In this document: positions 15,019 through 58,557 of the stretch, one piece after another
Layout of the letters: each line of letters starts with the position of its first letter
Numbering within the stretch: the first letter of the stretch is position 1
DNA from: Ehretia macrophylla
Lineage: Eukaryota > Streptophyta > Magnoliopsida > Boraginales > Ehretiaceae
Assembly (NCBI GenBank): GCA_037974665.1
Contig: CM075777.1
Span: 13,043,001 to 13,107,000, forward strand
Reading direction: 5' to 3'
Length of the DNA stretch: 64,000 bases
Program-made: the position numbers and the translations under genes
Notes under the pieces: model-generated
The model's input: the letters and a program-made list of their open reading frames with translations, nothing else
Databases searched by the model: none
What the model was told of the DNA's origin: nothing

Positions 15019-18000
15019 TCATCTGTGTCGTCTAGCATTGCTGGAAGTTTTTTTTTTCTCGTCCTCGGGATTTTTGAATACAAAGGCCTTTGTTGTTATC
15101 GATGAAGAAGATAAACTGCATAACACATATTTATTGTCAGTTTAGAGATCACTCACACACAAACCAACTTATAAATTTCAAATGGCTTATAAGCCCCAAT
15201 TAAATGTTCTGCTTCAAGCTCACCTAGCAGCATCCATTAAAGCTGTCCTTATTACTTTGACTGGGTCGATAATTCCTGCTCTCACCATATCCACATATTC
15301 CCCTGTTAAAGTCGAACAAACAATCAAATGTTAGAACAGAGATGACCATCTCTCATCACTTGTTGAAATATAAATCCAAGCTGTTAAATATTTAATGACG
15401 CACAAGTACCTTTTGCAGCGTCATATCCAAGATCGGGGTTATTCTGCTCCAACAGCTTCCCTACAACAACTGCACCCTCCACTCCCGCGTTTGTTGCAAT
15501 AGTATGCACTGGTGTCTGCAATTATGAAAAGATTAAATATTGAAATCAAATCCTAGTGTCGAGCTTGCATATAGGCATGCAGAAAATTGGTATTATACAT
15601 GTTATGACTAATTAATGCCTACAAAGCAGAAAGTTGATGATTATCTATCTGTGCACAAAAGCTACAATTAGTTTCAGATGGACCTTCAATGCAGTTTGAA
15701 TAATCTCAACACCAATCTTTTGATCCAAGTTGGCAGTTTGCAGCTTATCTAATTCTTTTGATGCATATAGGAGAGCAACGCCACCTCCTTCATTATAGAA
15801 ATTGCACAATATAATTAGGATTCGCAAGGCCATGTGAGACGAAACATGGTTGACAATATATATAATTAATATTACTTACCTGGAAGAATTCCTTCTTCTA
15901 GAGCAGCCCTGGTAGCATTTAGGACATTTGTAACTCTTTGAAACTTCTCGCAAATTTTAGATCCGTTGGCTCCCCCGATCTACAAGAAAAAGAAACGTTA
16001 AATCGAAAACGATAGGTTGAAATATCTGCAATATTTAGGAGATCCTTTCCCCGATCCCATACGGGTGTTGGTTGATTGGCGTATTGACAAAAAAATTGCT
16101 AAGACATGAATATATCTTTTAAAATTAAAGGCTGGTCTCAGAGGAACAAGATTATAATGTTTTTTTGACCTCTAGTACAGCCGCACCACCAGAAAGATTT
16201 CCTAGCCTCTCTTCCCATGTTCTCTTGTCATAATGATCAATGTGATAATGACCAGTGCTTCGTTGAATTTGAACTCGTTCTAGTTTTGATCTAATCTGTT
16301 AAATAAAATCGGCACAGAATGAAACCGAATTAATAACTTAAAAATCGTTCATGAGAATCAGAGAATTATTTGAATTGAGTATTTATCTATCTATCAATTC
16401 AAATAACAAAAATATAGTACAGACCTCTTCGCATCTTTCCTCAATTGTCTTCTTGTCACCAGCACCATCATGAATAATTGTTTTGTAGCTAGATATCGTC
16501 ACCTGTAACACTTATTAATCGTACTAATACCCTAGAGAAAAACAGAATGTCCTACTATTGATGATTGGAAAATTTTTTAAAACGTCCCTGCTTTTGGATG
16601 TTCAAAAAATGTCTCAATTATAAAATGACACATGGCAATGTGATGTATGCTTGTCTGCCCTTTGATGGACACCATGCAAACTGTGGTGTCATGTCTGCGA
16701 ATTAAAAAGCGAAATGTGGAGTTCAAAAAATGTGCAAAAAAAAAGTTGTCGTTTTGAAGAACGACTCTTGATGATTAACCCTCTGAGTTTTATCTTTTCA
16801 TGAAAGTGGACTTAGTTGTCAAATCATAAATCATATCATAAATAAAAATGTCATTTTTTTAAATCGTAAATCGTAATAGACAATACTGATATACAAGAAT
16901 AACATATATAATACCTTTTTGCATGAACCCAACATATCGAATTGCACATCATCGATATCCATTCCTTCAGTTATTACCTGCATTTAGAACATTAAGTAAT
17001 CACCTTCTCTCATGTATTATACCACACTCCGTAAGAAGAAAATTAATTGAGCAAACAGACTAACTTGGCCTCCTGTTAAAATAGCAAGGTCATGGAGACC
17101 AACTTTTTCACCATTCTCTTTACGACCAAACCAAGGAGGTTCTATGGCACAAACCTGTATAAATAAGTAACTTGTATAATCCAATACGTCAGTGATTGAA
17201 TGAAATGTTAAATATAATAAATAATATAATAAACCATTTTTAACAGCTTAAACTTTTAAAATGAAGTGACCATGTTACCGTTACCCATTTAAAACATTAA
17301 AACTGTCCAAATGTAAAACTTAAAAACTAACTCCGTCTGCACTTGCGGGGGTATGTTGAATATAATAAATAATAGAATAAATCCTCTCTAACATCTTAAA
17401 CTTTTAGATGAGGTAGTCACTTAACATAGAAAGAACCCAACTACAGAGCAAACATAAAGGCAAAAAACTCTATTCTCAAATGAGATGGTAAGAATACCTT
17501 AATACTAGCATGAAGGTTGTTTAGAACAATGAGAGTTTTTAGTGCTTCACCTTCCACATCTTCAGCAACAATCAACAGGGATCTTTGTCTCTGAAAAGAC
17601 ACACAAGAATGAAAAGGATTCGAATTTCACGTCTAAAATGAACGAACTCTAATCGGCAGTATTCTATGATTTCCTCAAAGTAAAGGAATGATTTTTTTAA
17701 AAAAAAAATAAAAACAAATTCATCAAAAGTTACCTTGAAAGCCAACTCCGACACTTTAAAAATAGTATTAACGTTGTTAATTTTATTTTCATGTATTAAG
17801 ATAACAGGGTTATCTAACTCCTGCATAATTAAGTTAAAAACTGTTAATAACATAACAAGCACTAGAAACATGCTACAGAAAATAATACATCAATTGTTTG
17901 ATTGCCACATACATAACAAGTTGGCTTACACATTTCTGGTTTTTCGAGTTTGTGATGAAATGTGGGGAAATGTAACCTCTTTTAAACTGCATCCCCTCTT

Positions 18001-56500: not shown

Positions 56501-58557
56501 CTCTAAATTATTAAGAATAATTTCTTTTATCATATTATGAGATGCATAGCTTTATTAATTGTTGATTTTTCACCTCTAGCTGTTGCTGCGGGTCCTCACT
56601 CATGTATCATAATTGTAGGGCGGAAAGAAATTGTATAACGAGTTGGAAGTTCATGAAAGTATGATGCTAGACAAAGGTTACATTTCCCCACATTTCATCA
56701 CAAACCTGGAAACCGAGAAATGTGTAAGCCAACTTGTTTTGTTTTGTAGCATGTTTTTAGCGCTTGTTATTAACAGTTTAACTTAATTATGCAGGAGTTA
56801 GATAATCCTATTGTCTTAATACATGAAAAGGAAATTAACAGTGTTAATGCTATTGTTAAAGTGTTGGAGTTGGCTTTAAAGGTAACTTTGAATTTTTTTA
56901 TTTTTTATTTTTTATTTTTTAAAAAGAAAAAGTTCATTCATTTTCTTGGAGGAAATGGGTAGAAATTAGCATGTTATAATATTGTCTTAAAATTTTCTCA
57001 CATAGCGAACATTACTCTATTCTTCTGTATCTTTCCAGAGACAAAGATCCCTATTGATTGTTGCTAAAGATGTGGAAAGTAAAGCACCTAAAACTCTTAT
57101 TATTCTGAGCAAGCTTCATGCTGGTTTGAAGGTTTTCTTGCTATTTCATTAAAGAGTAGATTTTTTTTTTTTTTTTTTCTTTTTGGTTTTTTTAGAAAAA
57201 AAAAATTCATTATATTAGACATTTTCACTGTACGAATGCACTCCCTAACCTCTCTCACTAGCACCCCCTAACCTTGGGTTCCTGGCTCCGCCATTGTATA
57301 CAAGTTATGCAGGTTTGTGCCATAGAAACTCCTTAATTGGTTTGGTGGTCTAGAGAATGTTGTTCTCCATGATCTTGCTGCTTTAACAGGAGGCCAAGTT
57401 AGTCCATTTGCTCAGTTAATTTTATCCTATTGAGTCTGATGAGAGAAGGAGATTACTTACGTCCTAAATGCAGGTAATAATTGGAGACGGAATAAATATT
57501 GATGACGTGGAATTCGATATGTTGGGTTCATGCCAAAAGGTATTATATGTTATTGTTGTACATATCTTTATTATCCACCATGTTCCAAATATGTTCATGA
57601 AAAGGTAAAATTCAGAGGTTTATCTATAGCATCTTCTTTTTTAGTTTTGGATTTTTATTTTCTGGACATCAATGGTAGGACATTCTATTTTCTCTAGAGT
57701 ATTGGTATTATTAACAATTGTTCTTGTCTTATAGGTGACAATCTCTAGACACGACACGGTTATTTTTGATGGTGCTGGTGACAAGAAGAAAATCGAGGAA
57801 AGATGTGAAGAGGTTTGTACTACTAGTTTTACTATATGCATGTTTTCTTTATTTTAAATAATTCTCCGATTCTCATGCACGATATATTTTTCAGATCTTA
57901 ACTTGTTTTGCATTGTGTGTGCCAACTATATTTAACAGATTAGATCAGGAATTGAACGAATTGAACAAACTGAAAGAGGCATCTATTCTTTTGACAAGAG
58001 GTTGAAAAAGAGGCTGGAAAATCTTTCTAGTGTGGCTGTACTGAAGGTTGTGTATATCATGACTGAAGAAGAAACAAAAAATATTATCTTTGTTCTCATT
58101 CCTCGAAAGAAGTTTTTACGGGATCCCTATCTACCAAAATTTTTACTTCTGATTCTGGCGAACGAATAATCATATGAGGCCAGCCTTTATCTTCCGCATC
58201 CTAAAATTAATAGAGATACAAAAGAATCTACACTAACAATTTCTTGCTTTCTCTTATAGATCGGAGGAGCTAATAAAGCTGAAGTTGATGAGAGGAAAAG
58301 CAGAGTTACAAATGTCCTAAATGCTACCAAAGCAGCTGTAAAAGAAGGAATTCTTCCAGGTAAGTAATATTGTCAATCATGTTTCATCCCACATGGCCTT
58401 GCAAATCCTAATTATGTAATTTAATTGCTAACAAAATACTTTTTATAATACAGGAGGTGGTGTCGCTCTCCTATATGCATCAAAAGAATTAGATAAGCTG
58501 CAAACTGCCAACTTCGATCAAAAGATTGGTATTCAGATTATTCAAAATGCATTGAAG
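53596..58557 (+). pseudogene. CPN60: CPN60-like chaperonin gene 5, inverted and 3'-truncated pseudogene
   Basis: Exons recognisable: 53596-53633, 53780-53804, 53924-54087, 54609-54771, 54897-55072, 55625-55720, 56619-56723, 56795-56881, 57039-57131, 57313-57397, 57474-57539, 57735-57812, 57939-58046, 58260-58359, 58454-58557. Start MYPFAANLASKVR. Exon 3 has a 32-bp insertion that shifts the frame, exon 10 has an in-frame TAA after VCAIETP and a non-multiple-of-three length (85 nt), and exons 16-18 are gone: homology stops in intron 15 near 58705. Exon 4 ([14 protein letters not shown]) is closer to canonical plant CPN60 than the other copies, so this copy keeps older sequence. It also has Asn at the Asp398 position (codon 58311-58313). 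SGG in exon 13 reads SSV. Confidence 0.9.

Follow-up and report, generated by a model that had tools for sequence, protein, structure and literature searches.

Changing the aspartate at GroEL position 398 (D398) to alanine is a standard laboratory means of holding group I chaperonins with ATP, and a double mutant that also lacks the partner aspartate, D52A/D398A, exists. Chlamydiae carry GroEL2 and GroEL3 as extra, divergent group I chaperonins beside the canonical one. In the excerpts of the papers drawn on here, cryo-electron microscopy density attributed to the attacking water sits between D52 and D398 (PMC10723157); GroEL D398A binds ATP normally and is left with 2-3% of its ATPase activity (PMC5855711, PMC3326522); human HSP60 with D398A assembles with HSP10 into football complexes that are stable, and it can still refold rhodanese (PMC5855711); and a density-functional study of the aspartate dyad describes Asp397 as the poorer base (PMC12557358), its Asp50 and Asp397 presumably corresponding to GroEL D52 and D398. 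Here we describe a tandem array of five CPN60-like copies, named c1 to c5, in a 64-kb stretch of plant-like DNA (34% GC) from Ehretia macrophylla, hereafter the window, and show that every copy carries asparagine at the D398 position.

The triplet at this position is AAT in all five copies and lies in frame inside the motif RV(T/R/K)N(V/A)LNAT (Table 1); for c1-c4 the site was assigned to D398 by alignment with E. coli GroEL. Aspartate occupies the position in E. coli GroEL, in the mitochondrial HSP60 chains of human and fungi and, in the excerpted part of a lotus study, in the peptide VTDALNATK, assigned to CPN60 by mass spectrometry (PMC5217381). The partner aspartate at position 52 is present in c1-c3 and replaced by alanine in c4, which makes c4 a natural counterpart of the D52A/D398A laboratory mutant. 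The nucleotide motifs GDGTT (D87) and LPGGG are present in c1-c4, with an extra glycine before GDGTT in c1; c5 reads GTS where GDGTT has GTT.

Gene models were built from exon matches and splice sites, the latter picked to keep frames open. Complete models of 576-590 aa, each spanning 18 exons and free of internal stops, were obtained for c1-c4. Every one of the 68 introns of these copies closes with AG, and GT opens 67 of them; the remaining one, intron 14 of c3, has a GC donor (CAG/GCAAGT, 36343-36344) at a site where c1, c2 and c4 have GT. A disabled frame or splice site, our criterion for a pseudogene, was absent from c1-c4 and present only in c5, where exon 3 is thrown out of frame by an insertion, exon 10 bears both an in-frame stop and a frameshift, and no match was found for exons 16-18. 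The GGM-repeat C-terminal tail is absent from c1-c4: the tails of c2 and c3 are acidic and those of c1 and c4 short and basic. In the last exons of c1 (15019-15115) and c4 (44686-44779) the reading frame is displaced from that of c2, so that a short basic tail replaces the acidic one. An earlier note on this DNA had reported asparagine in all five copies in place of a normal aspartate, four copies open across 18 exons, and very slow hydrolysis by D398A rings, and these points were confirmed; its statement that GDGTT and LPGGG are kept held for c1-c4 and failed for GDGTT in c5.

Table 1. Positions of the array and other features in the window, and the bacterial loci and genomes used for comparison
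Feature	Position or identifiers	Strand	Details
c1 CPN60-like gene	15019-20344	-	18 exons, 583 aa, open; TIGR02348 584.6 bits
c2 CPN60-like gene	22823-30181	-	18 exons, 590 aa, open; TIGR02348 578.8 bits
c3 CPN60-like gene	35234-41170	-	18 exons, 581 aa, open; TIGR02348 607.9 bits
c4 CPN60-like gene	44686-50789	-	18 exons, 576 aa, open, without both dyad aspartates; TIGR02348 574.7 bits
c5 CPN60-like pseudogene, truncated and inverted	53596-58557	+	exons 1-15 only
c1 Asn codon AAT, GroEL D398	15926-15928	-
c2 Asn codon AAT, GroEL D398	23799-23801	-
c3 Asn codon AAT, GroEL D398	36391-36393	-
c4 Asn codon AAT, GroEL D398	45592-45594	-
c5 Asn codon AAT, GroEL D398	58311-58313	+
c4 Ala codon GCT, GroEL D52	49544-49546	-	VTKAGV
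c1 Gly-Gly-Asp	19261-19269	-	extra Gly before GDGTT (D87)
Flank downstream of c1	11885-12435		85% match to 32002-32557; edge of probable A-B-A'-B' block duplication
F-box domain fragment	32785-33039	-	Pfam
Reverse transcriptase fragment	60236-60715	-	PF07727; downstream of truncated c5
Sole-copy N398 + Asp51 loci	L002, L003, L005, L006, L008, L011, L014, L015, L020, L022, L026, L027
N398 copies, Desulfobacterales, Planctomycetota, others	L004, L007, L009, L010, L012, L013, L016, L017, L018, L021, L023, L025
Genomes with full-length D398 frame	G003, G008, G009, G011, G012, G015, G016, G017, G020, G022, G023, G024

Retention of the reading frames was assessed from exon lengths, indels and stop codons. 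Within exons 1-17, length varies among c1-c4 only at exons 4, 10, 11 and 13, and each difference is a multiple of three; among short intron indels, multiples of three made up 15 of 59 (c1-c3) and 16 of 74 (c2-c4). Whole-gene alignments gave raw exon indels in multiples of three in 5/7 (c1-c3), 4/8 (c2-c4), 4/7 (c1-c2) and 2/6 (c3-c4) cases, the misfits falling either within exon 18 or within exons 6, 7, 10 and 11. We judged those in the latter four exons to be gap misplacements, because exon 6 has the same length in all four models, as does exon 7, and the length differences at exons 10 and 11 are all multiples of three. Neutral simulation with coding changes as seen gave an expectation of 3.7-4.8 stops per terminal branch, compared with none observed (probability of none 0.008 for c1, 0.005 for c3, 0.025 for c2 and 0.020 for c4; 600 runs each). 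An intron-based expectation was higher, at about 10.6-11.0 per branch; the lower, coding-based figure was preferred because intron divergence in those alignments was judged to be inflated. The frames of c1-c4 are thus retained, while much of their sequence has drifted or diversified.

Analysis of the ratio of nonsynonymous to synonymous substitution rates (dN/dS, omega) revealed mixed constraint. Pairwise values were taken within c1-c4, pairs with c5 being unreliable (out-of-frame exon 15, missing codon), and ranged from 0.54 to 0.89. A single ratio over all codons of the four-gene tree was 0.69 (P = 0.0009 versus 1). Lineage values were 0.92 for c1 and c3, 0.56 for c2 and c4 and 0.61 for the inner branch, a weak difference (twice the log-likelihood difference, 2dlnL, 4.2 for two extra parameters), and the c3 branch alone gave 1.07. 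By domain, omega was 0.57 in the equatorial, 0.68 in the apical and 0.93 in the intermediate domain, and 0.93 in the presequence (32 codons). When the tail and the columns near indels were dropped, leaving 498 codons, the single ratio was 0.61 (P = 8e-5 versus 1), and a two-class model assigned 45% of codons to strong constraint (omega near 0) and the other 55% to neutrality (omega 1), with a gain of 2dlnL 43 over one ratio; null simulations (n = 8) reached at most 4.2. An extra class with omega about 2.7 improved the trimmed fit further (2dlnL 11.6, P = 0.003 over M1a). A much larger signal of positive selection in the untrimmed alignment (2dlnL 55) was rejected, as it came mostly from gap-edge and tail columns and fell to 11.6 after trimming. 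Selection on the asparagine itself was set aside as unproven, because we estimate, from branch lengths, about 1.2 neutral changes per codon over the tree and a neutral codon would often stay unchanged.

We also compared c1-c4 with 118 reference chaperonins, comprising 114 locus frames (98 from viral_contigs; 112 of the 114 distinct), E. coli GroEL and three mitochondrial chains. The locus references had been selected or filtered for Asp at 398, so that conservation of D398 among them is built in. Of 75 columns conserved in at least 97% of the references, none of c1-c4 departs from the references at 62, among them all 23 equatorial columns outside the nucleotide pocket. Three conserved columns differ in all four copies (T91, V376 and D398). 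Within the pocket 13 of 16 columns are kept throughout, the altered ones being T91, D398 and, in c4, D52. Among the apical residues that we take to contact GroES or substrate (Y199, Y203, F204, L234, L237, L259, V263, V264), c1 has L234F and, apart from the changes at Y203 and L237 and the insertion near L259-V264 described below, the others are the same or similar. K80 is alanine in all four copies.

The altered features can be set against expressed CPN60 of other plants, for which the excerpted parts of three studies give peptides. Further lotus CPN60 peptides include VTKDGVTVAK (D52), GYISPYFITNQK (Y203) and a TLIINK stretch without the array's extra residue (PMC5217381); a mangrove HSP60 spot yielded APGFGENRK (PMC3885408) and Brassica yielded GYTSPYFITNQK (PMC4686907). 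Judged against these peptides from other plants, the array is derived in four respects: D398N, Y203H, the break in the APGFG motif and the residue inserted into the helix. The copies share with plant mitochondrial CPN60 the full three-domain length, a TIGR02348 score near the cut-off (582.1 bits; c1 and c3 above, c2 and c4 just below) and a presequence-like start, MYRFAA..RNY, presumably typical of plant CPN60. They differ from it in D398N, Y203H, the broken APGFGxxRK, the extra helix residue and the missing GGM tail, and c4 additionally in D52A. A 63-row tree with a midpoint root joined the array to human and fungal mitochondrial HSP60 with support of 100/99, and the array alone was supported at 100/100. 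The same catalytic position is replaced as in the laboratory D398A proteins and most of the pocket is retained; in contrast to those proteins, the array carries asparagine and is a natural tandem family with changes in other domains. Like chlamydial GroEL2 and GroEL3 its members are divergent group I chaperonins, but against the chlamydial variant profiles NF038369 and NF038370 they scored only 135-212 bits, far under the cut-off of 600. A search of literature titles, with most subscription literature outside its scope, found none on a natural D398N chaperonin family.

The relationships among the copies indicate how the array may have grown. The tree paired c1 with c3 (100/98) and c2 with c4 (100/99), and since the flanks at 11885-12435 and 32002-32557 match at 85%, a two-gene block has probably been duplicated (A-B-A'-B'). 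The order of events suggested by these sequences is the formation of two gene types, then the block duplication, plus an inverted copy that is now dead. By parsimony, the asparagine predates the tandem duplications. Local gene conversion was considered as a source of the common asparagine and rejected: exon 14 ranks with the exons that have diverged more, with identities of 78-87% between gene types, 82% for c1-c3 and 95% for c2-c4, and its similarity is not unusual, making recent homogenising unlikely.

The most useful new element of this analysis is the comparison with natural bacterial GroELs that carry N398. A scan of genome_contigs (84,980 species) for asparagine in the motif returned 26 bacterial contigs; the count is a lower bound because the pattern fixes neighbouring residues. 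The equivalent scan of viral_contigs gave none with asparagine, compared with at least 120 with aspartate. N398 is therefore not unique to the plant array. When the 26 genomes, of unstated completeness, were searched with TIGR02348, the N form was the sole match in 12 small ones, whose titles nearly all name Patescibacteria groups, and all 12 of these proteins have aspartate at position 51 (SDDGV for TKDGV). The other 14 genomes, which are larger, had two to five matches, and a full-length D398 frame was read in 12 of them; the further matches in G006 and G018 were partial, and the N match in G023 was only a 148-aa frame. A full-length D398 copy was read in the same genome for 11 of the 12 N398 copies from Desulfobacterales, Planctomycetota and other groups (Table 1), the exception being L007 in G006. 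One of these copies, L021, has histidine at Y203, as does the plant array.

Counted over distinct frames, the residues at positions 51 and 398 were K/D in 112, D/N in 12, K/N in seven, R/N in two, N/N in two and D/D in none, with a further 15 frames that left one of the sites uncovered. The pairing of Asp51 with N398 probably represents one evolutionary event because the 12 frames form one clade; a Fisher test of the association ignores this kinship and is given no weight here. Patescibacteria with D398 lay outside the sample. Counted by eye on the tree, in which some forks are open, N398 seems to have arisen in bacteria about five or six times. Asp51 in the Patescibacteria-type proteins is a possible relocated second catalytic carboxylate. 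With K51 and N398 the plant copies resemble the bacterial extra-copy type, which has N398 and keeps D52 and D87 where covered; the bacterial extra copies differ from them in mostly retaining Y203 and other apical residues, in their mixed and sometimes GGM-like tails and in their separate origins on the tree. The sole-copy proteins share N398 with the array, whereas the array keeps K51.

Taken together, these data favour, at a probability of about 0.45, a reading of the array as mitochondrial CPN60 paralogues in which ATP would be bound but its hydrolysis would be slow or absent. The catalytic aspartate would have changed to asparagine before the tandem multiplication, and the four open copies, predicted to be imported into mitochondria, would have kept the fold of the equatorial domain and most of the pocket for ATP. 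Of the two aspartates that hold the attacking water, c1-c3 keep one and c4 keeps neither, so that c1-c3 may bind ATP with slow turnover and c4 may be slower still. The outcome would be long-lived ATP-state rings or, if the products join ordinary CPN60 rings, slow subunits, with a putative biological role. The slow chaperonin proposed in the earlier note is accordingly a reasonable idea, with adjustments. Its preference for selection over decay stands as far as the frames are concerned, with exon lengths in phase and no stops, but no result shows selection for asparagine itself or the dominant-negative action that it offered as a possibility; the dN/dS that it called for is below 1 (0.61-0.69), and yet high, with the c1-c3 pair indistinguishable from 1. 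The idea that asparagine alone makes a dead ring is weakened by the 12 bacterial genomes whose sole detected GroEL has N398, but these have Asp51 and the plant copies do not.

Several observations weigh against a retained, slow chaperonin. Omega is high for a chaperonin (0.69 over all codons, 0.92 in c1 and c3, 1.07 in c3 alone), the c1-c3 pair (0.89) cannot be told from neutral, the presequence has no sign of constraint at 0.93, and c5 has already decayed. Conserved columns are altered in at least one copy at 5/17 intermediate, 5/19 apical and 3/16 pocket positions. Y203 is histidine and the APGFG motif is broken in c1-c4, one residue is inserted into the helix with L259-V264, in TLI(N/V/S)LN, and two copies (c1 and c3) have L237S. 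The R197-E386 contact, which according to the excerpted study breaks while ATP tilts the domains (PMC3326522), is retained only in c3 (c1-c4 read R/G, S/K, R/E and I/K). With the apical features eroded in this way, normal capping by HSP10 is doubtful. The frame test leans on models picked to be open, although every junction still fits the consensus. A full-text search that covered the whole diagnostic peptides of c1, c2 and c5 along with NALNATK gave no match, the peptide of c3 lying outside it, and the ATPase figures in the papers drawn on here concern alanine at 398, none of them asparagine.

Many of these points serve the nearest rival of the slow-chaperonin reading, a serious contender that we nevertheless consider somewhat less probable: that selection on the array is relaxed and its genes are redundant leftovers of tandem duplication, in which D398N is one of many losses, the young genes are still open through weak residual selection and c5 is their future. 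Such relaxation would account for a dN/dS that is high and near 1 in the c1/c3 lineage, for the dead c5, for the erosion of APGFG, Y203, the R197-E386 contact and the GGM tail, and for last-exon indels that are not multiples of three between pairs, with the c1 and c4 tails frame-shifted; judged by branch lengths, a neutral codon could plausibly have stayed asparagine in every copy. It fits less well with zero stops against several expected per branch, with exon 1-17 lengths in phase, with 68 introns that remain consensus-spliceable, and with a bimodal constraint that leaves the equatorial core untouched.

It is unlikely, in our estimate, that the copies are divergent working chaperonins in which D52 alone (c1-c3) hydrolyses enough ATP while a new range of clients or co-chaperonins evolves. 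The poorer basicity of Asp397 in the modelled chemistry (PMC12557358) and the refolding of rhodanese by HSP60 D398A (PMC5855711), both as given in the excerpts, are compatible with this, as are the extra codon class of the trimmed fit, with its omega of about 2.7, and the seven distinct bacterial N398 frames that keep D52 and K51. The 2-3% of ATPase activity reported for D398A in the excerpted papers is little to work with, however; c4 lacks D52 as well, and the sole-copy N398 GroELs bear the extra Asp51, as if asparagine alone were insufficient. A role outside the ring, as monomers or small assemblies, would suit the lost GGM tail and the altered apical domain and allosteric contacts but is improbable, as the equatorial domain, which makes the ring contacts and binds ATP, is the most constrained (omega 0.57, 23/23 non-pocket columns kept).

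Elsewhere in the window, transfer RNA (tRNA) and Rfam scans gave nothing. Pfam searches of ten other frames identified one reverse transcriptase of Ty1-copia type and one F-box fragment, eight of the ten having no match; the frame at 59697-60113 is among those without a Pfam match and looks like the RNase H end of the element that holds the reverse transcriptase. No direct or inverted repeats of at least 60 bases were found within 58500-64000. Three-block heat-shock elements were found in none of the five copies within 600 bases upstream of the ATG, and a two-block element only in c5 (one).

On a wider scale, it is a speculative proposal, and on balance a doubtful one, that losing one dyad carboxylate is a recurrent route to an ATP-trapped, non-cycling paralogue beside a normal chaperonin, taken once in a mitochondrial family of a plant and, separately, on several occasions in bacteria, and that a sole chaperonin tolerates N398 only with a second aspartate at 51. 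Among the genomes examined the rule is that N398 without an added aspartate occurs in extra copies and that sole copies pair N398 with Asp51. Should this rule hold, it would bear on the share of each aspartate in ATP hydrolysis. A natural family changed at D398, with one copy that also lacks D52, would show how such rings behave in the cell.

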